Assembly (NCBI RefSeq): GCF_900111365.1
Contig: NZ_FOGZ01000014.1
Span: forward strand, 1 to 64,000
DNA: 64,000 bases
Direction of reading: 5' to 3'
Origin: Propionibacterium cyclohexanicum
Lineage (GTDB): Bacteria; Actinomycetota; Actinomycetes; Propionibacteriales; Propionibacteriaceae
A program made the translations under genes and the position numbers. The number at the start of each line of letters is the position of its first letter. Within the stretch, counting starts at the first letter, position 1. The notes under the pieces are model-generated. The model did no database searches, had not been told where the DNA came from, and saw only the letters and a list, made by a program, of their open reading frames with translations. Below are positions 15,662 through 63,906 of the stretch, one piece after another.

Positions 15662-17041
15662 TCAGATCTGCCAGTCGTCGGGTGGCGTGAAGGAATCGCC
15701 GAAGGCCTCGTGGCCGCGCACCATGCCTGCTGCCAGGGTCCAGCCCGACTGCGGATCCACGAGCACGAACGCCCCGCCGTGGCGGGTCTCGAGGTAGCTC
15801 TCGGCCATCACCGGGCCGGCCAGCCGCACCGAGATCCGGCCGATGTCGTTGAGTGCCAGGGCTTGGGCAGGTGCCGGGCTCATCGTCGCGAGATCCAGCC
15901 TGCCCTTGATCTGGTCCACGACGGCTTTCACCGTCGTCGAGCCGTGCTTGAGCAGGACGCGCGAGCCCACCTGCAAAGGCTGCTCGGCCACCCAGCAGAC
16001 CATCGCGTCGAGAGTCGTCACGGGTCGGGGAGCGTCCGCGGCAGACGAGATGAGGGAGCCACGGGGAGCATCGATGTCATCGGTGAGGCGCAGCGCCACC
16101 GACTGTCCCGCCACTGCACTGTCGAGTTGACGGCCGGCCAGGTCGATGCCGGCGATCCGGGAGCTCAGCCCTGAGGGCAGCACCACCACCTCGTCGCCGA
16201 CATGGACCTGTCCCGCAGTGAGCTGACCGGCGTAGCCGCGGTACTCGATCTGGCGGGGGTCGAGTGCGCTCGACTGCGGGCGCAGCACCAGCTGGACTGG
16301 GAAGCGGAAGCCCTCGACGGGGTCCGTGCTGGGCAGCATGCCGTCGAGCAACTGCAGCAGGCTCGGGCCGTGGTACCAGGACATGGTGTCCGAGGTATGC
16401 ACGATATTGTCGCCCGTGAGGGCCGCTGTGGGAATTGTCGTGATGTCCTCGATGCCCAGCCCGGCGCTCACCGCGCGGACCTCGGCGGCGACCTTCTCGT
16501 AGACGGTCCGGTCATAGCCGACCAGGTCGATCTTGTTGACGGCAACGACCACCTGCGGGACGCGCAGCAGCGCAGCCACCGCGAGATGACGGCGAGTCTG
16601 CTCCAGCACGCCGTGCCGGGCGTCGATGAGGAGCACGAGCACATCGGCTGTGGACGAACCCGTCACGGTATTGCGGGTGTACTGAACGTGCCCGGGGCAG
16701 TCGGCAAGGATGTAGCTGCGCTTGGCGGTGGCGAAATAGCGGTAGGCGACGTCGATGGTGATGCCCTGCTCCCGTTCGGCCCGCAGCCCGTCGGTGAGCA
16801 GGGCCAGGTCGACATGCTCCAGGCCGCGCGCCTCGCTCACCCGTGCGACATCGGCCAGCTGATCCGCCAGGATCGACTTCGAGTCGTGCAGGAGCCGTCC
16901 GACAAGGGTGGACTTGCCGTCGTCCACGGAGCCCGCGGTCGCCAGGCGCAGCAGCACCCGCGGCTGTGGGGCCGGGCTCGTTGCGGTGAGGTGATCGTGC
17001 TCGCTGGCGCCCGGCGCCGGCGCGGTCGTGGTGGTGCTCAT
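15662..17041 (-). CDS. cysN: Sulfate adenylyltransferase subunit 1 (GTPase)
   Basis: 459-residue EF-Tu-like GTPase of ATP sulfurylase; GTP hydrolysis drives formation of adenosine-5'-phosphosulfate by CysD. G1 motif GSVDDGKST near residue 40, G2 region EREQGITIDVAYRYF, G3 DCPGHVQY and G4 NKIDL are all present. No APS-kinase domain follows, so this is CysN, not a CysNC fusion. ATG 17041 shares one base with the cysD stop (TGATG), giving tight translational coupling. Last gene of the sir-cysH-cysD-cysN operon. Confidence 0.95.
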   Translation of the reverse strand: MSTTTTAPAPGASEHDHLTATSPAPQPRVLLRLATAGSVDDGKSTLVGRLLHDSKSILADQLADVARVSEARGLEHVDLALLTDGLRAEREQGITIDVAYRYFATAKRSYILADCPGHVQYTRNTVTGSSTADVLVLLIDARHGVLEQTRRHLAVAALLRVPQVVVAVNKIDLVGYDRTVYEKVAAEVRAVSAGLGIEDITTIPTAALTGDNIVHTSDTMSWYHGPSLLQLLDGMLPSTDPVEGFRFPVQLVLRPQSSALDPRQIEYRGYAGQLTAGQVHVGDEVVVLPSGLSSRIAGIDLAGRQLDSAVAGQSVALRLTDDIDAPRGSLISSAADAPRPVTTLDAMVCWVAEQPLQVGSRVLLKHGSTTVKAVVDQIKGRLDLATMSPAPAQALALNDIGRISVRLAGPVMAESYLETRHGGAFVLVDPQSGWTLAAGMVRGHEAFGDSFTPPDDWQI

Positions 17042-17955
17042 CAGAAGTAGCCCTCCTTCTTGCGATCTTCCATGGCGGCCTCGGACAGCTTGTCGTCGGC
17101 CCGGGTGGCGCCGCGCTCGGTGATTCTCGTGGTGGCCACTTCGACGAGCACCTCGTCGATCGTCGACGCCTCGGATTCGACTGCTCCGGTGCACGACATG
17201 TCGCCGATGGTGCGATAGCGCACGCGCCGCACGCTGACCTGCTCACCGGCCCGGGGAGCGGTCACCGGCGAGACCGGCAGCAGCATCCCGTTGCGCTCGA
17301 AGACCTCGCGGTCATGGGCGAAGTACAGGCTTGGCAGTTCGATGTGCTCGGAGGCGATGTACTGCCAGACATCGAGTTCTGTCCAGTTCGACAGCGGGAA
17401 GATCCGGACGTGCTCCCCGGCGCGGTGGCGCGGGTTGTACAGGTTCCACAACTCGGGACGCTGATTGCGCGGATCCCATTGACCGAACTCGTCGCGCAGG
17501 CTCACCACCCGCTCCTTGGCGCGGGCCTTCTCCTCGTCGCGGCGTCCGCCGCCGAAGACCGCGTCGAACCGGTTCTCGGCGATCGCATCGAGCAGCGGCT
17601 GGGTCTGCAGGGGATTGCGCGTGCCGTCGGGTCGCTCCTGGAGACGGCCGTCGTCGATGTAGTCCTGCACCCTGGCGACCACCAGGCGCAGCCCGAGCTT
17701 CGCGACCACGGCGTCGCGGTAGGCGAGCACCTCGGGGAAATTGTGCCCGGTGTCCACGTGCAGCAGGGGGAAAGGCACCTTCCCCGGCCAGAAGGCCTTG
17801 GAGGCCAGGTGCAGCATGACGACGGAATCCTTGCCGCCGCTGAACAGCAGTACAGGGCGTTCCAGCTCGCCGACCGCCTCACGGATGATGTGGATGGCCT
17901 CGCCCTCGAGTGCGCCAAGATGGCTCAGGGGAGGCGCGCTCAGCGGTGCGTTCAT
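17041..17955 (-). CDS. cysD: Sulfate adenylyltransferase subunit 2
   Basis: 304-residue catalytic subunit of ATP sulfurylase, making adenosine-5'-phosphosulfate from sulfate and ATP. The PP-loop motif LLFSGGKDSVVMLHLA is near residue 37; further conserved stretches are FPLLHVDTGHNFPEVL, FGGGRRDEEKARAKER and FPLSNWTELDVWQYI. The ATG overlaps the cysH stop codon (ATGA) and the stop overlaps the cysN start, so the three genes are translationally coupled. Confidence 0.95.
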   Translation of the reverse strand: MNAPLSAPPLSHLGALEGEAIHIIREAVGELERPVLLFSGGKDSVVMLHLASKAFWPGKVPFPLLHVDTGHNFPEVLAYRDAVVAKLGLRLVVARVQDYIDDGRLQERPDGTRNPLQTQPLLDAIAENRFDAVFGGGRRDEEKARAKERVVSLRDEFGQWDPRNQRPELWNLYNPRHRAGEHVRIFPLSNWTELDVWQYIASEHIELPSLYFAHDREVFERNGMLLPVSPVTAPRAGEQVSVRRVRYRTIGDMSCTGAVESEASTIDEVLVEVATTRITERGATRADDKLSEAAMEDRKKEGYF

Positions 17956-18707
17956 AGGTGGATCCCGCATTCTGTCTTGGCCACGCCGGCCCAGCGTCCC
18001 GATCGGGGATCCTCGCCGGGTGCCACCGGGCGGGTGCAGGGTTCGCAGCCGATGGAGGGATAGCCTTCGGCGAGCAGCAGGTTGATCGGCACGTGGTGCC
18101 TCGAGGCGTAGTCGGTGAGGTCGTCGAAGCTCCAGGCGGCCAGTGGGTTGATCTTGACCATCTCGTGCGTCTGGTCCCACTCGACGAGCCCCGCGTGGGC
18201 ACGCAATGCGTTGTCCTCGCGCCGGATGCCGGTCACCCAGGCCTCGTAGCCGGCCAGTTCCCGGTTGATCGGCTCGACCTTGCGCAAGGCGCAACACAGC
18301 GTGGGATCGCGGGAATAGAGCCTCTCGCCGTACTGGGCATCCTGCTGCGCGACGCTCTGCCGGGGCAGCACGTCGATGATGTGCGCGTCGATCACCGCTG
18401 CCAAGGCGTCACGGGTGCCGATCGTCTCGGCGAAGTGGTAGCCGGTGTCGAGGAAGAGAACATCGACGCCGGGCGCGAAACGCGAGACCAGATGGGGCAG
18501 CACGGTGTCGCCGGCCATCGAGCAGGCCACGACGAGGGCCTCGCCGAACACCTCGTGCGCCCAGGCCGCCAGCTGCTCAGGGGCGGCCTCGGCCAATTCG
18601 GTACCGGCCTGTTCGGCGATTGCCTTCAGCTCGGACGCCGAGCGCCTTCGCCCCGGCCCGTGGCTGCCCGTGGCCGGTGTGCTCAGCTCGATGTGCGATT
18701 CACTCAT
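17952..18707 (-). CDS. cysH: Assimilatory adenylyl-sulfate (APS/PAPS) reductase
   Basis: Reduces activated sulfate to sulfite with thioredoxin. Two cysteine pairs, CCALRKVEP and GCEPCTRP, form the 4Fe-4S site of APS-type reductases and are missing from enterobacterial PAPS reductases; lack of a nearby APS kinase agrees with APS use. The C-terminal ECGIHL holds the catalytic cysteine. I chose ATG 18707 (MSESHIELS), which overlaps the sir stop in ATGA; a start at 18740 would lie inside sir. Confidence 0.93.
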   Translation of the reverse strand: MSESHIELSTPATGSHGPGRRRSASELKAIAEQAGTELAEAAPEQLAAWAHEVFGEALVVACSMAGDTVLPHLVSRFAPGVDVLFLDTGYHFAETIGTRDALAAVIDAHIIDVLPRQSVAQQDAQYGERLYSRDPTLCCALRKVEPINRELAGYEAWVTGIRREDNALRAHAGLVEWDQTHEMVKINPLAAWSFDDLTDYASRHHVPINLLLAEGYPSIGCEPCTRPVAPGEDPRSGRWAGVAKTECGIHL

Positions 18708-20377
18708 CTCAGGCTCTCTTCCGGTGCTCGCTGGACCCACTTGGCAAAACTCTCGTCGGGCTCCCGCTCGGCGACGAAGCGCCGGCTCACCCGCTCCACA
18801 TAGTCGGGAAGCTCCGCGACGCCGATCTTGAGTCCGCGCAGTGTGCGCCCCAGGCCGGCCTGTCCGCGCTGGGCGGACTCGAGGCCGCCGCCCAGATGCA
18901 CCTGGAAGATGAACTCCTGGGTGCCCTCGGCGTTCTGCTGCAGCTGGCCCTTGAGACCGATGTCGGCGAGCTGGATCCTCGCGCAGGAGTTCGGGCAGCC
19001 GTTGATGTTGAGACTGATGGGCGCAGGGAGCTGCACGTCGGCGAGCCGGCGGTCCAGCTCAAAGATCGTGCGGGCTGCCAGGCCTTTGGTCTCCACGAAC
19101 GCGAACTTGCAGAACTCCAGGCCCGTGCAGGCCAGCGTCGAGCGGCGGAAGGGGCTCGGATTGGCCGTCAGGCCCAGCCTCTCCATGGTGGCGAGCAGCC
19201 TGGCGACCTTCGTCTCGCCCACGTCCAGCACGATGACCTTCTGCTGGGGCGTGAACGCCACCCGATCCGAGCCTGCCGCCTGCGCCGCGGTGGCGATGTC
19301 TGCGAGCAGCGCTCCTGACAGCCTGCCGACGGTGGGCGCGAAGCCGACATAGCGACGCCCGTCCTTCTGCTCGTGGACGCCGATGTGGTCTGAGGGGCCG
19401 GTGGGCTGGGCGGGTGCCGGCCCGTCGGGAAGCCGGTAGCCGAGGAACTCGTCCTCGAGCACCTGACGGAAGCGCTGCGGGCCCCAGTCGGCGAGCAGGA
19501 ACTTCAGGCGGGCCTTCGACCGCAGTCGCCGGTAGCCGTACTCGCGGAACAATCGGATCACCGCATACCAGACATCCGGCGCCTGCTCCTCGGTGACGAA
19601 GGCTCCCAGCCGTTCACCGAGCCGTGGCGTCACGGACAGCGCCCCGGCAACCCACAGGTCGTAGCCGGGTCCGAGCTCAGGATGGCGCACGCCCACTAGG
19701 GAGATGTCGTTGATCTCGTGCAGCACATCGAGAGTGGGGCTGCCGGTGATCGCCGTCTTGAACTTGCGCGGCAGATTGGAGATCTCCTCGCGCCCGATGT
19801 AGCGCTGCTTGATCTGCCTGATCACCGGACGCGGATCGATGATCTCGTCGGCGGCCACCCCGGCGACCGGGGAGCACAGGAAGCCGCGCGGGGTGTCACC
19901 GCAGGCGTGCACGGTGCTCAGCCCGACGGCCTCCAGGCGTCGCCAGATCTCGGGAACCGATTCGATCTCGATCCAGTGGAACTGCAGATTCTGCCGGTCG
20001 GTGATGTCGGCCGTGCCACGCGCGAACTTGGTGGAGATATCCCCGAGCACCCGCAGCTGCCGCACGGTGAGGCCAAGCCCGTCGATCCGCACCCTCATCA
20101 TGAAGTGCGAGTCGTTGAGGTCCTCGGGCGAGACGGAGCCGGTGCGCCCGCCCGGCACGCCCTGGCGGCGCTGGGTATAGATGCCCCACCAGCGCAGCCG
20201 GCCATTGAGGTCGTCGGGCGGAATCGAGCGGAACCCGCGCGCGGCATAGTCATTGATGACGCGTTGCCTGACGTGGAGGCCGTTCTCCTCGGCCTTGACC
20301 ACTTCATTCGAGTTGAGCGGCGCATGGCCGTCGACGGCCCATTGGCCCTCGGAACGCCTGTGGCTTGTGCTTGTCAT
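18704..20377 (-). CDS. sir: Ferredoxin-type nitrite/sulfite reductase, probable sulfite reductase
   Basis: 557 residues with the duplicated sirohaem reductase fold. The sirohaem/4Fe-4S cysteines are in TLACTGLEFCKFA and NGCPNSCAR. RGTADITDRQNLQFHWI and RKFKTAITG are conserved substrate-domain motifs. Position as first gene before cysH-cysD-cysN identifies sulfite rather than nitrite as the substrate, producing sulfide for cysteine synthesis. A cysteine-rich leader peptide lies 100 bp upstream and is likely to regulate the whole operon. Confidence 0.92.
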   Translation of the reverse strand: MTSTSHRRSEGQWAVDGHAPLNSNEVVKAEENGLHVRQRVINDYAARGFRSIPPDDLNGRLRWWGIYTQRRQGVPGGRTGSVSPEDLNDSHFMMRVRIDGLGLTVRQLRVLGDISTKFARGTADITDRQNLQFHWIEIESVPEIWRRLEAVGLSTVHACGDTPRGFLCSPVAGVAADEIIDPRPVIRQIKQRYIGREEISNLPRKFKTAITGSPTLDVLHEINDISLVGVRHPELGPGYDLWVAGALSVTPRLGERLGAFVTEEQAPDVWYAVIRLFREYGYRRLRSKARLKFLLADWGPQRFRQVLEDEFLGYRLPDGPAPAQPTGPSDHIGVHEQKDGRRYVGFAPTVGRLSGALLADIATAAQAAGSDRVAFTPQQKVIVLDVGETKVARLLATMERLGLTANPSPFRRSTLACTGLEFCKFAFVETKGLAARTIFELDRRLADVQLPAPISLNINGCPNSCARIQLADIGLKGQLQQNAEGTQEFIFQVHLGGGLESAQRGQAGLGRTLRGLKIGVAELPDYVERVSRRFVAEREPDESFAKWVQRAPEESLR

Positions 20378-20477: not shown

Positions 20478-20549
20478 TCAGTGAGCGCGACAACACAGGG
20501 CGACAGCGAGCAGACCCACGGTGGGGCTGGGGCGCTGGCCGAACGACAT
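20478..20549 (-). CDS. Cysteine leader peptide (23 aa) for the sir-cysHDN operon
   Basis: Short ORF read directly from the minus strand: starts MSFGQRPSPT and ends LCCRAH before TGA. Two adjacent cysteine codons (both TGT) sit three codons before the stop. Its ATG is only 6 bases after a TATGGT -10-like box, so transcript and peptide probably begin together. In mycobacteria, leaderless uORFs with cysteine runs attenuate sulfur genes in response to cysteinyl-tRNA; the same arrangement recurs in front of the sulfate importer in this window. No experimental support is visible here. Confidence 0.68.
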   Translation of the reverse strand: MSFGQRPSPTVGLLAVALCCRAH

Positions 20550-20555
20550 GTCGAC

Positions 20556-20561
20556 ACCATA
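20556..20561 (-). promoter_or_regulatory. TATGGT -10 box for leaderless sir leader transcript
   Basis: TATGGT on the minus strand, followed by GTCGAC and then the leader ATG. The spacing places the transcription start at or next to the A of ATG. The same hexamer precedes the other cysteine leader (24296). No convincing -35 hexamer is visible. Confidence 0.5.
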
Positions 20562-20676: not shown

Positions 20677-22050
20677 TCAGTCCTGCAGTGCCTTGTTCGC
20701 GGCGTCCTGTGCCTGGCTCAGGGCGGTCGCCACAGGTGTGCGGCCGAGGAACATCGCGTCGAAGTAGGGCTTCCATGCACTGGCCGCTGCACCGTAGTGC
20801 GAGCCGGTGGGTGCGCCGATGGACTTCTGGGCACCTTGTCTGGCGAACTGGCTGGGGTCGACCTTCTTCGCCGCCCAGAACTGTTTGAAGGCGTCCTGGG
20901 CCCCGCTCACTGCGGGCAGTGCGGCGCCGGCCTTGCCGACGAAGCTCGCGCCCTCGACCGAGCCGAGCCATTGAAGCACCTTGAGGGTGGCGGCGCTGTT
21001 CTTCGATTTCGCGTTGCCGACGACGACGGTGTTGTTGACCACCGAGATCCGTCCGGCCGGGCCGGCCGGAATCGGCACCAGACCCCACTCGAACTTCGCC
21101 CCATCGAAGACGTCCTTGAGGTTGTACACGCCTGACTGGAAAAGGGCGATCTTTCCTTGCAGGAACTGGTCGCGGGTGAAGTCGCCATTGGCATTGGTGT
21201 TCCCGGCGGCAGGGGATACCTGATATTTGTTGATCAGGTCAACGATGTACTGGAAGGCTTCGACGCCCTGGGGCGAATTAAAGTTGAAAGTATCATCGGC
21301 GGCCTGGAACGATCCTCCGTTCGAGCCGAGGAAGTTGTAGTAGATACCCTGCAGGTCCTGGGCTGCCGAATATCCCCAGATCTGCGGCTTCGTGCCGTCG
21401 AATCCGGGCTCGTTACCGCGCTTGCCATTGGCGTCGAGGGTGAGTTTCTGCACGATGGGAAGGAAGGTGTCACCGCTTCCGCCACCGGGAACCCAGCTGA
21501 GATCCCGGATCTGGGCGACGCTCACCCCAGCCGCATCGAGCAGTGATTTGTTGTAATAGATCGCGATTCCGCCGTCGGTGAGCTGGGGGACGCCCCACAG
21601 GTTGCCGTTGCTCGTGTACTGGTCGATCGCGGGCTGGATCCAGCCCGATTTCTGGGAGCTGAAATCATCGCCGATGGGGATGATCGACTTGTTCGTGATG
21701 TAAGTCTGAATATAAGCGCCGTTCATCAGCCAGATGTCGTCGGCGTTTCCGCCTCCCACATCGGCCTGCAATTTGGTGAAGTAATTGGCCCAGGGTACCA
21801 GGGTCGTGGTGACCTTGATACCGGGATTCTTCGCGGTGAACGCCGCAAAACCGGTTTCATAGGCCGCCTGGACCTGCTGGTCCCACAGCCGCACGGTGAC
21901 CGTCGCGGCACCCCCCGTCGAGCCGGAATTCGACTGGGCTGCCGGCGAGCAGCCGGCCAGCGCCAGTGCTCCGATGCCTGCCGCGGCACCGAGCAGGGTG
22001 CGGCGGCCGACGCGGACGGAGCCGAGCGGCGAGGGTGAAATCGATGGCAT
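20677..22050 (-). CDS. Sugar ABC transporter substrate-binding lipoprotein
   Basis: 457-residue extracellular solute-binding protein (family 1, maltose/oligosaccharide type). The signal peptide has VGRRTLLGAAAG, a possible Tat-type twin arginine, and lipobox LAGC, so it is anchored to the outer face of the membrane. The following Ser/Gly-rich linker is typical of lipoproteins. AGGAGA precedes the ATG. Last gene of a three-gene importer operon with two permeases upstream. The sugar cannot be assigned. Confidence 0.87.
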   Translation of the reverse strand: MPSISPSPLGSVRVGRRTLLGAAAGIGALALAGCSPAAQSNSGSTGGAATVTVRLWDQQVQAAYETGFAAFTAKNPGIKVTTTLVPWANYFTKLQADVGGGNADDIWLMNGAYIQTYITNKSIIPIGDDFSSQKSGWIQPAIDQYTSNGNLWGVPQLTDGGIAIYYNKSLLDAAGVSVAQIRDLSWVPGGGSGDTFLPIVQKLTLDANGKRGNEPGFDGTKPQIWGYSAAQDLQGIYYNFLGSNGGSFQAADDTFNFNSPQGVEAFQYIVDLINKYQVSPAAGNTNANGDFTRDQFLQGKIALFQSGVYNLKDVFDGAKFEWGLVPIPAGPAGRISVVNNTVVVGNAKSKNSAATLKVLQWLGSVEGASFVGKAGAALPAVSGAQDAFKQFWAAKKVDPSQFARQGAQKSIGAPTGSHYGAAASAWKPYFDAMFLGRTPVATALSQAQDAANKALQD

Positions 22051-22090
22051 GTCTTCTCCTGAATTGTGGTGGATATGAGTACTTCGAAGG

Positions 22091-22999
22091 TCAGCGGAAG
22101 CTGGTCAGCGAGATTGAATTGACGATGTGGCGCTGGAACACCGCGAACAGCACGAGCAGCGGAGCCATCGACAACGTCGTGGCAGCCATGACGAGCGTCC
22201 AATTCCCGTTGTACTGACTTTGCAATCCGGCAGTGGCGACGGTGAGGGTCTGCCAGGTGGGGCCGGTCGTGATGATCAGTGGCCACAGGAAGGCATTCCA
22301 GTTGGAGACCACGGTGATGATTGTCAAGGTGGCGATGATTGGGCGGGCCAGCGGTACGACGATTCGCCACAGAATCTGCCAGGTCGACACGCCGTCGATC
22401 CGCGCGGCATCGACAAGCTCCTGGGGAATTCCGCGGAAATACTCACGGAGCAGGAAAACGGCATAGGGCGAGCCGAACACGAAGGGCAGCACCAGTGACC
22501 AGAAGGTGTTGCGCATTCCGGCCTGCACGAACATCGTGTACAGCGGAATGACGGTAACCACCTGGGGCACCATCATCGTGGAGAGATAGACCCAGAACAG
22601 CAGTTCGCGGCCGGGAAATCGCAACCGGGCAAAGGCAAAGGCCGCCATGATCGAGAAACTCAGCTGACCGACCAGGATCACCGCGACCATCTGGATCGTC
22701 ACGACCAGGGGCGCGATGAAACCCTGTGCACCCAGCAGGGTGCGGAAATTGTCGAGCGTGACGGGGTGGGGCAGCGACAGTGCCGGCTCGGAGGCGAACT
22801 GGGCCGGTGTTTTGAAGGCGGTGAGGAAGCTCAGGACGAAGGGCGCGAGTGTCAGCGCCGCTGCGCCGAGCAGGATGACATAGACCGCCGTATCGGCGAG
22901 CACCCGGCTCGGTGTGCGTCGATGCCCGTGCCTGGGGGCCGGGTCGACGACCGCCGTCCCCGGCGTCCACCTGGGAGCGGATTTCTCAGGAGAGGTCAT
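22091..22999 (-). CDS. Carbohydrate ABC transporter permease (MalG-like)
   Basis: 302-residue inner-membrane permease with about six spans. The EAA loop reads EYFRGIPQELVDAARIDGVSTWQILWRIVVPLARP, the contact site for the ATPase. The N-terminal proline/charged cytosolic tail and family-typical LSLPHPVTLDNF segment agree with MalG-type subunits. Its start overlaps the end of the MalF-type gene by 14 bp. It should pair with the neighbouring permease and a shared ATPase encoded elsewhere. Confidence 0.88.
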   Translation of the reverse strand: MTSPEKSAPRWTPGTAVVDPAPRHGHRRTPSRVLADTAVYVILLGAAALTLAPFVLSFLTAFKTPAQFASEPALSLPHPVTLDNFRTLLGAQGFIAPLVVTIQMVAVILVGQLSFSIMAAFAFARLRFPGRELLFWVYLSTMMVPQVVTVIPLYTMFVQAGMRNTFWSLVLPFVFGSPYAVFLLREYFRGIPQELVDAARIDGVSTWQILWRIVVPLARPIIATLTIITVVSNWNAFLWPLIITTGPTWQTLTVATAGLQSQYNGNWTLVMAATTLSMAPLLVLFAVFQRHIVNSISLTSFR

Positions 23000-23954
23000 A
23001 GGTGATCCTTCCTGCGATGAACCGGTGCTGCACCAGGGTGACCGCGACGATGATGACGAACAGGACGAGTGCCATCACCGAGGCGTGCCCCAGGTTGAAG
23101 CCACCCTGGAAGGCCTCCTGGTAGATCCGCAGCGCCATGACGTTCGTGCGCGAGCCGGGGCCGCCGCTGGGGGTCAGCGCATAGATCTGGTCGAAGGCCT
23201 GAAAGGCGGAGATCGCTCCCGTCAGGGCGACGAAATAGAGCGTCGGGCCGAGCAGCGGAATCCTGATCCGCCACAACGACTGCCAGGACGAGGCGCCATC
23301 GATCTGCGCGGCTTCCAGAACGCTCACCGGGATGCCTGCCAGCCCGGCCATGAAGAACAAGGTGGTGTATCCGACCTGGGACCAGATGGTGACGAGCGCT
23401 ACGATGGGCAGAGCCAGCACCGGCGAATTCAGCCAATCGGTCTGCGCTCCGGTGAGGGCGTTGAGTGCACCGCCGCTGGGCGCGAAGATCCACTGCCAGA
23501 CCACGCCGAGCGCAAGCGGTGCGCACATCCACGGGATCACGTACAGGACCCGGAAGACCCCGGAGCCTGGCAGGCCGCGGGTCAGCAGCAGGGCCATCGC
23601 CAGACCGAGCGCGACCTGCACGGGGACGACCAGCACGACGAAGACGAGGGTGATCCACAAGGAGTGCCCGAAGGTGGGGTCGGACAGCACCGCAAACCAG
23701 TTGCGCAGCCCGACGAAGCGCATGGGACCGATGAGATCCCAGCTGTTGACGCTCAGCCAGATGACGACCGCTATGGGTACGACGAGGAAGACGGCGATTC
23801 CCAGCAGACTCGGCGCCACCAGCGCCAGCCCTTCGACCATCTCCTGGCGCCGGGCACGACCGAGGTGGTGGCCGGGCAAGCCCGAGCGGGAGGATTCGGA
23901 GGACGGTGGGTGGCCGCTGTGGGCCACCGTGCCGACTGGAGTGACGGGTGTCAT
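22986..23954 (-). CDS. Carbohydrate ABC transporter permease (MalF-like)
   Basis: 322-residue permease with six spans; the EAA loop is GIPVSVLEAAQIDGASSWQSLWRIRIPLLGPT. I chose ATG 23954 (MTPVTPVG) rather than a further upstream start because sequence before it is not protein-like. First gene of the importer operon. No ATP-binding subunit is encoded in the operon, so it probably uses a multi-importer ATPase of the MsiK type, as known in other actinobacteria. Confidence 0.87.
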   Translation of the reverse strand: MTPVTPVGTVAHSGHPPSSESSRSGLPGHHLGRARRQEMVEGLALVAPSLLGIAVFLVVPIAVVIWLSVNSWDLIGPMRFVGLRNWFAVLSDPTFGHSLWITLVFVVLVVPVQVALGLAMALLLTRGLPGSGVFRVLYVIPWMCAPLALGVVWQWIFAPSGGALNALTGAQTDWLNSPVLALPIVALVTIWSQVGYTTLFFMAGLAGIPVSVLEAAQIDGASSWQSLWRIRIPLLGPTLYFVALTGAISAFQAFDQIYALTPSGGPGSRTNVMALRIYQEAFQGGFNLGHASVMALVLFVIIVAVTLVQHRFIAGRITYDLS

Positions 23955-24295
23955 TGTCAGACTTCCGGGTCTTGGGGCCACAAGCCAGAGCCGGACAACA
24001 CCGCCGCCAGGCACTGGGGCCCCGCGCATCAGATGGAGAAAAGCTGCTGATCGCAGGATCAAGCCAGCGGACAACACACACCGATGGACGCGAGGCACCA
24101 CCACGGGGCGGGCACGGTCGATCGGGTGAACACGGCGTCAGGCTAGCAGAGCCAGATCACCCGATCCGTCCATGTCACCCCCGGTACATCCGGAGCGCAG
24201 GACATCCGTTGCCCGTTGGGCGCAGGGCATCGCTCGCCGGTGCACGGGACATCCGCTATCTGGAGGGCGCTGCCGCACGGTGTCGTGATCTGGTT
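23955..24295. other. Intergenic region between sugar importer and sulfate importer
   Basis: About 340 bp without a convincing gene. It should hold the divergent promoter of the sugar importer. The right half contains an irregular series of ACATCCG-like heptamers: TACATCCG at 24185, GACATCCG at 24201, GGCATCG at 24226 and GACATCCG at 24248. They precede the cysteine leader and may be a regulator site, but spacing is uneven (16, 25 and 22 bp). Confidence 0.4.
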
Positions 24296-24301
24296 TATGG
24301 T
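24296..24301 (+). promoter_or_regulatory. TATGGT -10 box for leaderless sulfate-importer leader transcript
   Basis: TATGGT is followed by GTGCGTC and then the leader ATG at 24309. The 7-base gap fits transcription starting at or beside the ATG. The hexamer is identical to the one before the sir leader, and both lie behind a similar CTGGNTTT stretch. Confidence 0.55.
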
Positions 24302-24308
24302 GTGCGTC

Positions 24309-24383
24309 ATGACGACGACGCGAGACCAGGCCAGCGCCTTGCTCCGTGTGTGTTGTTGTTGTCTGTGCCCGGTGGGTTGCTGA
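24309..24383 (+). CDS. Polycysteine leader peptide (24 aa) for the sulfate importer operon
   Basis: Short ORF starting MTTTRDQASALLRV and ending CCCCLCPVGC before TGA: six cysteine codons among the last ten, four of them consecutive TGT. This composition is the signature of a ribosome-mediated attenuator that senses charged cysteinyl-tRNA. It lies 183 bp upstream of the sulfate-binding protein gene on the same strand. Its stop codon is built into a small hairpin (TGACC/GGTCA, 24381-24394), so ribosome stalling on the cysteine run would alter downstream folding. Confidence 0.82.
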   Translation: MTTTRDQASALLRVCCCCLCPVGC

Positions 24384-24522
24384 CCTTTCGGTCACCCTCT
24401 GCTCCTCACCTCCGGTTGCTGCCCGTGCGGGCCCCGGAACGACCAGACAACTCTGATGTGTTTCCCATGAGTTGCGATTCTTTTCGGGAGTCCTCCGTGC
24501 GGCCGTTGACACGGCAGCGCAC
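24381..24522 (+). promoter_or_regulatory. Candidate attenuator structures after the polycysteine leader
   Basis: Three stems are visible: TGACC-TTTC-GGTCA at 24381-24394, overlapping the leader stop; GCCCG-TG-CGGGC at about 24421-24432; and a larger imperfect hairpin at 24497-24522 with GCCGT/ACGGC as its core and GTGC/GCAC at its base. The last ends about 30 bases before the AAGGA of the binding-protein gene and could mask ribosome access or end transcription. Confidence 0.45.
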
Positions 24523-24566
24523 ATCCATCTCGCCCTTATCCCACTTCGCACGAAGGACATCGATCC

Positions 24567-25598
24567 ATGATCACCCGGCGTTCACTGCTGACCACCACTG
24601 CCGCCCTGCTGCCCGCGGTGGGCCTGGCTGCCTGCTCCAATGTTCCCAAGGACGCCTCGGGCGCCGCCGCGTCGGCGAGCACCATCAAGCTTGTCGGCTA
24701 CTCGACGCCATCCGCGGCCAATGCGGCGGTCTCTGCCGCGTGGACAAAGACCTCGGACGGGAACGGGGTGAGCTTCCAGACCTCCTACGGCGCCTCCGGC
24801 GACCAGAGCCGCAATGTCGCCAACGGCCAGGCGGCGGACTATGTGCACCTGTCCGTCGGCTCCGATGTCAGCCGCCTGGTCGACAAAGGCCTTGTCGCCA
24901 AGGACTGGGACGGCGGCACCTACAAGGGGATCGTCACGACCACGGTGGTGGCGATCGCCGTGCGCCCGGGCAACCCGCTGGGCATCACCGGGTGGGCGGA
25001 TCTCACCAAGCCGGGAGTCAAGGTCGTCACCCCCAATCCGAGTTCCTCGGGCTCGGCGCGCTGGAACATCCTCGCCGTCTGGGCGCACATCGCGTCCCTG
25101 GGCGGAAGTGATGCCGATGCGAAGGCCTTCCTCTTTCAGGTGCTCAAGAACACTGTCGCCCTGCCGGGCAGCGGGCGCGATGCCACGACGGCTTTCACCG
25201 GTGGGACTGGCAATGTGCTGTTGTCCTACGAGACGGAGGCGATCTACGCGCGCCAGCAGCAGAATGGGGTCTTCGACTATCTCGTCCCCAAGGACACCCT
25301 GCTCATCGAGAATCCCGGTGCGGTCACGGTGAATGCCACGGCCAAGGCCAAGCCGTGGCTGGACTATGTGCTGTCCGCGCCGGCCCAGCAGATCTATGCG
25401 CAGTACGGCTTCCGCCCGCTCATCGGTACACCCCCAAGCGGCATCAAGGGCGTGAACGACGCCTCCGATCCCTTCCCGGCGCCTGATCATCTGTTCACCA
25501 TCGGCAAGGATTTTGGCGGATGGTCGGCGGTGAACACGAAGTTCTTCGGGGACAACGGGATTGTCACGCAGCTTCTCTCGCAGGCGGGCAAGTCATGA
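24567..25598 (+). CDS. sbp: Sulfate/thiosulfate ABC transporter substrate-binding lipoprotein
   Basis: 343 residues. N-terminal signal with TRRSLL and lipobox LAAC, so membrane-anchored outside the cell. The oxyanion-binding signature NPSSSGSARWNILAVW (canonical NPKTSGGARWNYLAAWG) is near residue 150, and LLSYETEA is also characteristic of Sbp/CysP. RBS GAAGGA precedes the ATG. Its stop overlaps the next start (ATGA), and it heads the operon with cysT, cysW and cysA. Confidence 0.93.
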   Translation: MITRRSLLTTTAALLPAVGLAACSNVPKDASGAAASASTIKLVGYSTPSAANAAVSAAWTKTSDGNGVSFQTSYGASGDQSRNVANGQAADYVHLSVGSDVSRLVDKGLVAKDWDGGTYKGIVTTTVVAIAVRPGNPLGITGWADLTKPGVKVVTPNPSSSGSARWNILAVWAHIASLGGSDADAKAFLFQVLKNTVALPGSGRDATTAFTGGTGNVLLSYETEAIYARQQQNGVFDYLVPKDTLLIENPGAVTVNATAKAKPWLDYVLSAPAQQIYAQYGFRPLIGTPPSGIKGVNDASDPFPAPDHLFTIGKDFGGWSAVNTKFFGDNGIVTQLLSQAGKS

Positions 25599-26461
25599 CG
25601 GCCGTCGCCGAGCTGGATCCTCCCGTCGAAGCGGCGAAGCGCAAAACGGGCAAGCCCTATGTGGAATCCCGGCGCCGTCTCGGGACGGGTTCGAGAGTGG
25701 GGCTCGGCGTGGCGGTGCTGTGGTTCAGCCTGCTGGTGCTCATTCCGCTGGCGGTCGTGGTGGGGACGGCAGCCGCCGGGGGCGCCGGGCAGTTCCTCGC
25801 GGCGCTGACGAATGCGCAGACCCTCAACGCCATCGGGCTCACCGTCGTCGTCTCGCTGGCTGTGACAGCCATCAACGTCGTCAGCGGCACGATCATCGCC
25901 TGGGTCCTCGTCCGGGACCGGTTCTGGGGACGCTCCCTGCTCAATGTGGTCATCGACATCCCCTTCGCGCTGCCGACCATCGTCGCCGGGCTGGTGCTGC
26001 TGTCGCTGTACGGCAACAATTCCCCGCTCGGCATCAACATCGCGAACACCCGTTGGGCGGTGGCGCTCGCCATCGCCTTCGTCACGCTGCCCTTCGTTGT
26101 CCGGGCCGTCCAGCCGGTGCTCGAAGAGCTGGACGTCGATGTGGAAGAGGCCGCTGCCTGTCTGGGTGCCGGTCCGTTCGCGACCTTCGGCCGGATCGTC
26201 CTGCCATCCCTGGCACCCGCGATCACCTCGGGGGCGGCGCTGTCGTTTGCCCGGGGGATCAGCGAATACGGCTCCATGGTGCTGCTCAGCGGCAATCTGC
26301 CTAACCGGACCGAGGTGGTCAGCGTGCGGGTGCTGACCCATATCGAGAATGGCGATCTGGCCTCGGCCGCGGCGCTGGCGACCGGCATGCTGGTGATCGC
26401 AGCCGCCGTGATCGTGGCGCTGGACGTCCTGCGCAGAACGGTGGCCCGCCGTGATTCGTGA
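25595..26461 (+). CDS. cysT: Sulfate ABC transporter permease CysT
   Basis: 288-residue permease with six spans. The cytosolic EAA loop reads VLEELDVDVEEAAACLGAGPFATFGRIVLPSLAP. The family stretches IDIPFALPTIVAGLVL and ARGISEYGSMVLLSGN match CysT/CysU. ATG 25595 overlaps the sbp stop; the C-terminus overlaps cysW by 11 bp. It forms the channel with CysW. Confidence 0.94.
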   Translation: MTAVAELDPPVEAAKRKTGKPYVESRRRLGTGSRVGLGVAVLWFSLLVLIPLAVVVGTAAAGGAGQFLAALTNAQTLNAIGLTVVVSLAVTAINVVSGTIIAWVLVRDRFWGRSLLNVVIDIPFALPTIVAGLVLLSLYGNNSPLGINIANTRWAVALAIAFVTLPFVVRAVQPVLEELDVDVEEAAACLGAGPFATFGRIVLPSLAPAITSGAALSFARGISEYGSMVLLSGNLPNRTEVVSVRVLTHIENGDLASAAALATGMLVIAAAVIVALDVLRRTVARRDS

Positions 26462-27260
26462 GCCCAAGCCCGTCCGGTGGGTCCTCCGGCTGTTCGTCAT
26501 CTGCTATGTCGGTCTGCTGGTGCTGTGGCCGGTCTTCCTCGTCGCGCAGCGGACGCTGTCGCCCGGTTGGCAGGCGGTTGTGAGCTCGCTGTCCAGCCCC
26601 GAAGTGCTGCTCGGTCTGCGCCTCACCGGGATCGCCACCTTCTGGTCCGTACTGTTCAACCTGGTCTTCGGAGTCGGCATCTCGCTGTTGCTCGTCCGAT
26701 ACGAGTTCCGCGGCAAGCGGCTGCTGTCGGTCCTGCTCGATCTGCCGCTGTCGGTGTCACCGGTTGTCGTCGGGCTGGCGCTCATGCTGGTCTACGCCAA
26801 GGGCACACCGGTCGGGCGTTTCCTCTATGGCATCGGCTACCAGATCATCTTCGCCACGCCTGGCATCGTGCTGGCCACCACCTTCGTGGCGCTGCCGCTG
26901 GTGATCCGCGAGGTCGTCCCGGTGCTCACCGAGATCGGCGACGACCAGGAGGTTGCCGCCCGCAGCCTGGGCGCCAGCGGCTGGCAGACCTTCTGGCGCG
27001 TCACGCTGCCCGGGATCAAATGGGCGGTCGTCTACGGGGTCGTGCTCACCCTGGCTCGTTCGCTGGGCGAGTTCGGAGCGGTCAAGGTGGTCTCCGGCAA
27101 TATCTCCCTGCAGACCCAGACGGCCACCCTCGTCGTGCAGGACACCTACCAGGATTTCCAGCAGCAGACCGCCTACACCGTCTCACTGCTGCTCACGCTC
27201 GCGGCGGTGCTCTGCATCACCGTCGTCGCGCTTCTTCGTCCCAAGGAGAAACTGTCATGA
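26451..27260 (+). CDS. cysW: Sulfate ABC transporter permease CysW
   Basis: 269-residue permease with six spans; the EAA loop is [52 protein letters not shown] is diagnostic for CysW. It starts with GTG at 26451 inside the end of cysT, and its stop overlaps the cysA ATG. Confidence 0.94.
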
Positions 27261-28252
27261 GTATCGAGATCGTGGGAGTCAACAAGTCATTCGGCGACTT
27301 CGCAGCGCTCACCGATGTCCATCTCGACATTCCCAGCGACAACATCACCGCCCTGCTCGGTCCCTCCGGCGGAGGGAAGACCACCTTGCTGCGCATCATC
27401 GCCGGGCTCGAGGCCGCCGACAGCGGGACGGTCGCCATCGAGGGGGTGGACGCCACCGGCATCCCGGCGCAGAAGCGCAACATCGGGTTCGTCTTTCAGC
27501 ACTACGCCGCTTTCAAGCACCTGACGGTCGCGAAGAATGTGGGCTTCGGATTGTCGATCAGGCACTGGCGCAAGCGCGATGTGGACAAGAAGGTCGACGA
27601 ACTGTTGCGGCTGGTCCATCTCGAGCAATTCGCCGACCGGCTGCCCTCCCAGCTGTCAGGAGGACAGCGCCAGCGGATGGCTCTGGCCAGGGCGCTGGCG
27701 ATCGAGCCGAAGCTGCTCTTGCTCGACGAGCCCTTCGGGGCGCTGGACGCCAAGGTGCGCAAGGAACTGCGCGACTGGCTGCGCCGGCTGCACGAGGAGG
27801 TGAAGGTGACGACGGTCTTCGTGACCCACGACCAGGAGGAGGCCCTCGAGGTCGCCGACAATGTGGTGGTCATGAACGCCGGCAGGATCGAGCAGTCGGG
27901 TCCGCCGGTGGAGCTCTACGACGAGCCGGCAAGTCGTTTCGTCATGAGCTTCCTCGGTGAGGTCACCACCCTGGACCACCATCTCATCCGTCCCCACGAC
28001 ATCGCCGTGCACACCGAACCGGTGCCGGGGGGAGTTGCCGGAGTGATCGTGCACTGGCAGCGGATCGGCTTCGAGGTCCGAATCGGTGTGCGCCCACAGT
28101 CCGACAGCCAGGATGCGCCCGAGATCGCCGTGCGGCTCACCCGCACCCTCGCCCACGCTCTCGGGCTTGGCGAGGGGGTGCGGGTGTGGCTCGAGCCGGA
28201 GAAGGGCGCCACGGTGATCCCGGCGCTGGAAGCGGTGCGTCCGGCGGCGTGA
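27257..28252 (+). CDS. cysA: Sulfate ABC transporter ATP-binding protein CysA
   Basis: 331-residue ATPase. Walker A is GPSGGGKTT, the Q-loop FVFQHYAAF, the signature [15 protein letters not shown], Walker [21 protein letters not shown] and the switch histidine in [12 protein letters not shown]-terminal TOBE-like domain (about 245-331) follows. AAGGAGAA precedes the ATG, which overlaps the cysW stop. Powers sulfate/thiosulfate import. Confidence 0.95.
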
Positions 28253-28363
28253 ATGGTTCGCGTCGCCGGATCCCGGGACTTCGCGACTTAGGGTCTCCTC
28301 AGCTTGTCCGATAGCCTCGGGGACGAAGCACCAGTCACCGTGACGCGAATCGAGGATCCACTG

Positions 28364-29086
28364 ATGAGCAGTCAGCCCAGCACCCACGCGACAGCCCAGA
28401 ACAGCCAGGCCGCACCGGACGCAGGAACCATCCACTACGCGATGTACAGCGTCTTCAAGGCGACGTCTGCGCTGCCTGCCGACCGGGCCGAGCGGGCCGA
28501 CGCCGTCGGTGGACTCGAGACGCGCCTGGCCGGGATCGACGACCTCACGACGCGCGGCTGGTATGACCTGTCCGGACTTCGCGCCGACGCGGACGTCCTG
28601 GTCTGGTGGACGGCGCACAGCTCCGAGACTCTCCAGGAGGCCTACCGGGCGGTCCGCAGGAGCACGATCGGCAGGCACCTGGGGGCGGTCTGGTCGGCGC
28701 TGGGCGTGCACCGCCAGGCCGAGTTCAACGCCTCCCACATGCCCTCCTTCGCGGCGGGCCTGCCACCGCTGCGCTATCTGTGCGTCTACCCCTTCGACCG
28801 AAGCTACGACTGGTACCTGCTAGGCGAGGGAGAACGGCGCACCCTGCTGGGCGAACACGGACGCGCAGCTCAAGCTTTCAAGGACGTGCAGGCGAACACC
28901 CTTGCGGCCTTCGGCCTGGGCGACAACGAATGGCTGCTGGCCCTGGAATCCGACGAGCTGGTCCGCATCGTCGACCTCATCCGCCATCTTCGCGCCACCG
29001 GCGCCCGCCGCCATGTGCGCAACGAGATCCCCTTCTTCACCGGTCCGCGTCGTCCGGCCGTCGAGTTGTTCGCAGACCTGGCCTGA
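28364..29086 (+). CDS. hemQ: Coproheme decarboxylase (HemQ, chlorite dismutase-like)
   Basis: 240-residue actinobacterial-type HemQ that converts coproheme III to haem b in the coproporphyrin-dependent pathway. Conserved segments are HYAMYSVFK, GWYDLSGLRADADVLVWW, YPFDRSYDWYLL with the radical tyrosine, and EHGRAAQ containing the probable proximal histidine. The start MSSQPSTHAT at 28364 is preceded by GAGGA; a TTG start at 28304 is less likely. Other haem genes are not in this window. Confidence 0.9.
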   Translation: MSSQPSTHATAQNSQAAPDAGTIHYAMYSVFKATSALPADRAERADAVGGLETRLAGIDDLTTRGWYDLSGLRADADVLVWWTAHSSETLQEAYRAVRRSTIGRHLGAVWSALGVHRQAEFNASHMPSFAAGLPPLRYLCVYPFDRSYDWYLLGEGERRTLLGEHGRAAQAFKDVQANTLAAFGLGDNEWLLALESDELVRIVDLIRHLRATGARRHVRNEIPFFTGPRRPAVELFADLA

Positions 29087-62592: not shown

Positions 62593-63906
62593 ATGTCACA
62601 AATCAGTTCCCTCCAGCACTCGTCCCTCGATGAAGTTCCATTCGGTAGATTCCATTTACGGATCACCGCGATGACCTTTGGGGCAAACTTCTCCGACGGC
62701 TACGCGCTGGGTATCATCGGTGCTCTGCTGCCAATACTCACCACGAAATGGGTCCTCAGCGGTTTCGAGCAGGGGATGCTCGCCAGCTCTGCTCTCATTG
62801 GCCTGTTCTTCGGGAGCATGGTGCTTGGCCGAGTAGGTGACATCATCGGGCGTCAGCGCGTCTATGTGCTCAACTTCATTCTCATTGCTGTGGCCTCTTT
62901 GCTACAACTGTGGGCGCCCGGGTTGTGGGTCCTTTTTGTTCTTCGGGTGCTCATCGGCTTTGGGCTCGGCGCTGATTATGCTGTTGGTCCGACACTGCAG
63001 TCCGAATTCGCACCACGCAAGCAGCGAGGTTTCATGCTTGCCTCGCTGACTGTGCTATGGACAGTGGGCTATGTTGTGGCGAATGTCCTGGGTGTGCTTC
63101 TTGTTGGCACCGGTGATGCCTGGCGATGGTTGCTGGCGAGTGGTGCAATTCCCGCGATCGTTGTGCTGCTTGTGAGGATCGGTGCTCCGGAATCACCGGG
63201 GTGGCTCATTAGCCGCGGTCGTGTCGAGGAGGCACGGGCAATTGTGCGCAAGCATCTCGGCGTCGAACTCACAGATGCCGAGCTGGTCACGTCTGTCGGG
63301 GAGAACGCCTCGAATGACTACCGGCGTCTGTTCGTCAAGGGGCAGGCCAAGCGCACCTGGTTCGGTGTTGTCTTCTACAGCGCACTCGTGCTGCCCTATT
63401 TTGCCATTTACACTTTTGTACCGACAATTTTTGAGAACTTGAAAATTCAGGACGCCAACCTGCAATACATTATTCTCAATTTCTTCCTGCTCGTCGGCGG
63501 AATCGCAGGTCTATGGCTCGTCCAACGCTATTCGCGGCGCGCGGCGACTTTCTGGTCCTTCGTCGTGCTGGCGGTTTCGCTGCTAGTGCTCGGCTTGACG
63601 TCCGGCATGCCGGCTTTCGTCCTCATGATCCCCTTTGCTGTCTATACATTCGTGATGTCCGCAGCATCGAACTTGACACAGGTTTATCCGCCCGAGCTGT
63701 TTCCCACCCCGATCAGATCCTCAGGTGTCGGTCTCCTGAACGGTCTGAGCCGTATCGCATCGGCAGCGGGCACCTTCCTCCTCCCACTCATGCTTACCGG
63801 TTGGGGGATCGCGGCATCGATGTATGTCCTCGCCGCAGTACTCGCCGTAGGTGCTGTTTTCACTTGGTGGTGGGCCCCGGAGACCTCGAAAAACCACCTT
63901 GTCTAG
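62593..63906 (+). CDS. MFS transporter (sugar/acid symporter type), probable histidine or urocanate importer
   Basis: 437 residues, 12 spans. MFS motif A GRVGDIIGRQRVYVLNF follows the second span, and the second-half FPTPIRSSGVGLLNGLSRIAS is typical of metabolite:H+ symporters (aromatic acid/sugar porters). It begins 7 bp after hutH, so it is probably cotranscribed and brings in the substrate of the lyase or of HutU. Substrate inferred from context. Confidence 0.82.
   Translation: MSQISSLQHSSLDEVPFGRFHLRITAMTFGANFSDGYALGIIGALLPILTTKWVLSGFEQGMLASSALIGLFFGSMVLGRVGDIIGRQRVYVLNFILIAVASLLQLWAPGLWVLFVLRVLIGFGLGADYAVGPTLQSEFAPRKQRGFMLASLTVLWTVGYVVANVLGVLLVGTGDAWRWLLASGAIPAIVVLLVRIGAPESPGWLISRGRVEEARAIVRKHLGVELTDAELVTSVGENASNDYRRLFVKGQAKRTWFGVVFYSALVLPYFAIYTFVPTIFENLKIQDANLQYIILNFFLLVGGIAGLWLVQRYSRRAATFWSFVVLAVSLLVLGLTSGMPAFVLMIPFAVYTFVMSAASNLTQVYPPELFPTPIRSSGVGLLNGLSRIASAAGTFLLPLMLTGWGIAASMYVLAAVLAVGAVFTWWWAPETSKNHLV

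Follow-up and report, generated by a model that had tools for sequence, protein, structure and literature searches.

Upstream of the sulfate-import operon sbp-cysTWA of Propionibacterium cyclohexanicum we predict a leader-peptide attenuator that would sense cysteinyl-tRNA and would belong to the mycobacterial class, a reading to which we assign, from sequence evidence, a probability of roughly 0.8. The cysteine-sensing leader, a device studied in mycobacteria, would extend to a propionibacterium, where it appears ahead of sbp, nirA, cysK and perhaps a fourth operon.

In the proposed mechanism, RNA polymerase would start at or next to AUG 24309, as the spacing of the -10 box suggests, and ribosomes would load on the leaderless mRNA. 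With ample cysteinyl-tRNA, the ribosome would cross TGT-TGT-TGT-TGT-CTG-TGC, reach the stop and release, after which the downstream RNA would hold sbp low, most likely through the stem formed by 24490-24500 and the SD, while Rho acting on the C-rich 183-nt gap could help to keep expression low. With scarce cysteinyl-tRNA, the ribosome would stall in the Cys run and, by analogy with the mycobacterial system, the block would be lifted. Like leaders precede the nirA operon and cysK, and perhaps also a UspABC-like importer, so that several operons would answer one signal.

Architecture of the leader region

The features discussed here (Table 1) lie in the window, the whole stretch of 64,000 nt that was analysed. 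As the preliminary description had proposed, a 24-residue ORF follows a TATGGT box, and consecutive Cys codons stand near its end (C-terminal CCCCLCPVGC). Box and ATG are 7 nt apart, within the 6-8 nt taken to indicate a leaderless start. According to the accessible part of PMC3848588, leaderless mRNAs are common in P. acnes and the centre of TAnnnT averages 9 nt 5' of the transcription start in that species, so that transcription of the sbp leader would begin at or about 1 nt from its ATG. The leader is the first ORF ahead of the sulfur/cysteine operon sbp-cysTWA, and its stop was indeed found in a small hairpin, as claimed earlier: the hairpin has 5 bp (-6.0 kcal/mol for a 22-nt piece), with the TGA within the 5' arm.

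Neither a sigma-70 consensus promoter nor an intrinsic terminator between leader and sbp was detected in 24100-24700, and the window gave no Rfam match at gathering score. A classical terminator attenuator of the trp or ilv kind and an Rfam riboswitch were rejected on these grounds.

Table 1. Positions of the leader regions and genes in the window
Feature	Positions	Strand	Remarks
-10 box TATGGT, sbp leader	24296-24301	+	fits actinobacterial TAnnnT (consensus from the accessible part of PMC3848588)
sbp leader ORF MTTTRDQASALLRVCCCCLCPVGC	24309-24383	+	predicted leaderless; TGA at 24381-24383; counterpart in G003
Four tandem TGT Cys codons	24351-24362	+	putative stall site
Hairpin TGACC-TTTC-GGTCA	24381-24394	+	contains leader stop
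Anti-SD strand GTCCTCCGTGC	24490-24500	+	pairs with 24548-24558 (sequence, fold)
SD strand of sbp GCACGAAGGAC	24548-24558	+	pairs with 24490-24500
sbp, sulfate-binding lipoprotein	24567-25598	+	TIGR00971 above cut-off
cysT, permease	25595-26461	+	TIGR02139 above cut-off
cysW, permease	26451-27260	+	TIGR00969 above cut-off; CysW equivalog TIGR02140 below
cysA, ATPase	27257-28252	+	TIGR00968 above cut-off
Box TAGCCT, candidate Usp leader	24140-24145	-	window scan
Candidate third leader VFTRSTVPAPWWCLASIGVCCPLA	24059-24133	-	GTG start, Cys-Cys; ahead of UspABC-like operon
UspABC-like importer	20677-23954	-	UspC match, permease domains
uspA	22986-23954	-	
uspB	22091-22999	-	
uspC	20677-22050	-	UspC (PDB 5k2x, 5k2y), E about 1e-120
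-10 box TATGGT, nirA leader	20556-20561	-	window scan
nirA leader MSFGQRPSPTVGLLAVALCCRAH	20478-20549	-	leaderless, Cys-Cys; box 6 nt before start
nirA-type sulfite/nitrite reductase	18704-20377	-	PF01077, PF03460; no NCBIfam equivalog above cut-off
cysH, PAPS reductase domain	17952-18740	-	PF01507
cysD	17041-17955	-	named by position and resemblance, without family search
cysN, EF-Tu-like GTPase domain	15662-17041	-	family query from upstream start 17194

The Sbp protein has its best named match in Acidipropionibacterium (71%). In a metagenome-assembled genome of that genus (L059), cysD-cysN-sbp-cysT-cysW-cysA stand in one row, with no leader directly 5' of sbp. A hemQ reading frame (28304-29086) follows about 50 bases 3' of cysA and may be part of the same operon.

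Leaders at sbp loci of relatives

A relaxed scan (TAnnnT 5-9 nt before ATG or GTG; ORF of 8-45 aa with two Cys among its last 10 residues) was applied to 700 nt upstream of sbp, with the reverse strand as control. Within our bacterium's own order, where the 57 genomes searched hold 18 sbp loci in 17 genomes (own included), leaders were found at two loci, our own and that of a second genome of the genus (G003); the one control match is the Usp candidate leader of the window. In the mycobacterial-type family (f7), so taken because one of its Sbp proteins matches M. tuberculosis SubI (6ddn, E 1.5e-156), 22 of 26 sbp loci have a leader (control 0), one of which (L193) is without tandem cysteines. 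The remaining 58 class loci gave no leader and no control match. A strict scan of the same 84 class loci returned eight leaderless matches, every one in f7, and the reverse control was empty in the strict and the relaxed scan alike. These loci, with eight scanned under the own order and two left out (G247, G502), make up the 94 class loci besides our own. At 80 named sbp loci neither scan detected a leaderless leader (control 0), five of these loci having little or misplaced upstream DNA (L098, L121, L125, L134, L138). As the leader is absent at most relatives' loci, it is not required for sulfate import in general.

The leader of G003 (MITRQRQAPSMRRALCCCLCPVCR, box TATAGT, 7-nt spacing) is as long as ours, agrees with it in 12 of 24 residues and in 30 of the last 39 nt, and uses the same Cys codons. 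The gaps between leader and sbp in the two genomes show no alignment above chance level (p 0.09 from 200 shuffles); the leader was thus kept while its surroundings diverged, in this one genome, whose sbp start codon is uncertain. The DNA pattern for CCCLCP occurs at 15 sites in 14 of 198 family genomes and takes the form of a leader in our genome and G003 only. The leader region of one mycobacterial-type locus, used as a DNA query, matched 4 of 121 genomes.

A different conserved short ORF, ending in CPGCCSPSDAPSI or close to it, lies 446-848 nt ahead of the sbp match at nine loci (L066 and L067 from Jiangella, and L140, L142, L144-L147 and L149); no TAnnnT box was found at these nine ORFs.

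Chance, peptide or codons

A leader this short could be a chance ORF within an ordinary 5' UTR. We scanned the window for ORFs of 8-45 residues with TAnnnT 6-8 nt ahead of ATG or GTG, and found eight such leaderless-type short ORFs in the 64 kb, four of them with Cys-Cys within the last 12 residues. Dinucleotide shuffles (n=40) yielded more leaderless-type ORFs (mean 10.7) but almost none with Cys-Cys (mean 0.03, maximum 1), and the reversed window yielded none with Cys-Cys. Three of the four Cys-Cys ORFs stand ahead of sbp, nirA and the UspABC-like operon; the fourth, within an MFS-like frame (62593-63906), is probably due to chance. Given the shuffled and reversed windows, and with an orthologue present in G003, we dropped the chance reading of the sbp leader as extremely improbable. 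Genome-wide (2.81 Mb), TGYTGYTGYTGY has 25 sites, three of which fall in open frames shorter than 110 codons, namely the sbp leader, a frame without a start inside 50 codons (L004) and a frame whose GTG starts yield 10 and 18 residues (L007).

The ORF could also be translated and influence sbp through its peptide or through translation as such, by coupling, transcript stability or redox sensing, without any reading of cysteinyl-tRNA. Conservation alone cannot separate codons from peptide, and this sbp leader is present in two genomes only, but the residues around the cysteines vary between leaders (CCCC, CCR, CCA, CCRCL), whereas the tandem Cys codons and the sulfur-gene context recur. The tandem codons are biased as well: across this genome's four leaders (sbp, nirA, Usp, cysK), all ten are TGT, and the isolated Cys codons of these leaders are TGC. 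Fifteen reading frames of the window, hand-chosen and including two (cysD, cysN) opened upstream of the likely start, have 6 TGT and 23 TGC. An effect of the peptide or of mere translation therefore appears improbable to us, and we favour cysteinyl-tRNA sensing at the codons.

Relation to known systems

Polycysteine attenuators encoded by leaderless short ORFs are described in mycobacteria (Canestrari 2020, as reported in accessible passages of PMC9031893, PMC13236596 and PMC9094748), and ribosome occupancy on one such ORF is documented in the available part of Shell 2015 (PMC4633059). Our leader resembles these in its leaderless ORF, in the Cys codons near the end and in its place ahead of a sulfur/cysteine operon, and directly comparable leaders precede mycobacterial-type subI; beyond the Cys codons we noticed, without an alignment, no resemblance. 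The distance from stop to SD is 162 nt at our sbp and 93-131 nt in 15 mycobacterial-type leaders.

Seliverstov 2005 (PMC1262725, accessible part) predicted leaders with Cys runs for Mycobacterium, for the cys operon of Propionibacterium acnes, which probably belongs to the same family as our bacterium, and for cbs of B. longum. Like ours, the P. acnes and B. longum candidates combine a Cys run near a short-ORF stop with the lack of a terminator; sbp, leaderless starts and several operons per genome are unmentioned in the accessible part of that paper. The uORFC-8-2 motif before cysS in Rhodobacterales (PMC8632094, accessible part) is likewise an attenuator-like ORF that carries tandem Cys codons, but differs in phylum and target gene, in the dominance of TGC and in its terminal U run, which would fit an intrinsic terminator. 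The open-licence literature gave no further report of such leaders in propionibacteria, which is weak evidence, and the word 'cysteine' does not occur in the accessible part of the P. acnes promoter study (PMC3848588).

The preliminary description had likened the element to a cysteinyl-tRNA attenuator of the kind described in mycobacteria. Its class assignment is well supported by the geometry, by the Cys run and codons of the sister species, by the subI arrangement and by the nirA, cysK and Usp leaders. The kind is indeed described in mycobacteria, but was also predicted for P. acnes and B. longum (PMC1262725, accessible part), and a stalled ribosome frees no SD here by folding.

Output of the proposed sensor

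As far as sequence can tell, a Cys sensor is well supported, and its output would be either SD masking or Rho. At sbp, anti-SD and SD strands pair at 10 of 11 positions, and this duplex (-16.7) is stronger than in shuffles (mean -10.3; 0 of 200 as strong). Across the ensemble, SD openness is not unusual (0.15 compared with 0.25 in shuffles, p 0.16), and the anti-SD strand has an alternative partner at 24417-24438 (-25.1 versus -23.4 kcal/mol for SD pairing). The sbp SD stays masked when a stretch the size of a ribosome is blocked at any Cys codon (0.15-0.19 free, blocked or unblocked), and folds of the growing transcript contain no switch of the right sign at sbp. A switch in which the Cys run of the window pairs downstream was dropped, as in those folds the SD is masked whether or not a ribosome stalls.

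Several mycobacterial-type leaders behave differently from our sbp leader, in that a blocked ribosome frees the SD (L194 from 0.08 to 0.42, L203 from 0.08 to 0.48, L209 from 0.16 to 0.54); in four others the SD is unchanged (L200, L206, L208, L220), and in L211 the value falls from 0.50 to 0.25. SD sites of the mycobacterial-type leaders were located by pattern, and L218, where no SD was found, was left out of this comparison. The SD is more masked than in shuffles in nine of 15 mycobacterial-type leaders (p up to 0.08), a test that used 15 of the 22 and left out seven. A candidate SD-masking stem of these leaders was spotted by eye, and RNAalifold gave almost no consensus for the 22 (-2.9 kcal/mol).

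The same Cys sensor might instead drive a Rho-dependent attenuation of transcription within the 183-nt gap, with ribosome position setting Rho access, as was proposed for such leaders in the accessible part of PMC1262725. In absolute composition, not relative to ordinary intergenic DNA, the 162 nt from the stop to just before the SD hold much C (0.38) and little G (0.23), and the other tested leaders have the same bias downstream. The lack of a terminator in 24100-24700 fits Rho, and so does the shuffle test at G003 sbp, own nirA and own cysK, where SD masking is not significant and the stem is therefore not shared. However, with a ribosome stalled at the tandem codons most of the gap would stay accessible, and the strong anti-SD stem of the window speaks against Rho as well. 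We consider a Rho-based output a serious possibility, though short of even odds.

Further leaders in the same genome

In the window, nirA is the first gene of nirA-cysH-cysD-cysN. Leaders were found at five of 46 nirA loci (own, G001, G003, G014, G020) in two sets of 30 and 16, counts that leave out G033. The reverse control gave two matches in the first set, namely the G003 sbp leader, sbp and nirA being divergent neighbours in that genome, and an ORF at L258, and none in the second. The L258 ORF (genome G019), on the strand opposite nirA, is Cys-rich and leaderless-type (MSSADVPTRDLTCRVAPGTRCCCRSAMLRV) and may be a divergent leader.

The boldest lead concerns the UspABC-like operon, which sits between the window's two sulfate-assimilation operons. 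Among 29 uspA-like loci of the family, two have a leaderless Cys-rich leader, our own and that of a genome from a second genus (G009; L331, reverse strand, start about 1273), where MVTSQTSQVSHSGDRTCCRCS precedes uspA; the reverse control of the 29 loci gave only the window's sbp leader. In G009 neither nirA (E 1e-60) nor sbp (E 1e-20) found a match, and in G003 UspA found none (E 1e-70). In the mycobacterial-type family, none of ten uspA loci has a leader, only four of the ten being more than 50% identical. At L333, L344 and L340 upstream DNA is little or misplaced, and the L340 match is partial. The accessible part of PMC8281650 lacks the word 'sulfur' and has a single occurrence of 'cysteine', in connection with mass spectrometry.

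A possible cysteine control of a UspABC-type importer is the surprise of this analysis, and two genomes carry the arrangement. The 'amino-sugar' importer of this type in propionibacteria might be cysteine-attenuated and import organic sulfur, for example in the form of mycothiol, a mycothiol fragment or another amino sugar that carries cysteine, an idea that we regard as speculative and rather unlikely. Because such leaders flag genes under cysteine control, they can help to predict the cargo of transporters with unknown substrate, here the UspABC type.

The two cysS loci, one of them below the family cut-off, and a weak cysK paralogue (L304) have no leader. Ahead of cysK lies the leader MANVNARRHIVLVRVEAAMMCCRCL (L303:1112-1189; box TAGTAT, 7-nt spacing), which ends in MMCCRCL and is 311 nt from the cysK match. 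Further leaders of this genome may be among its 296 TGYTGYTGY places.
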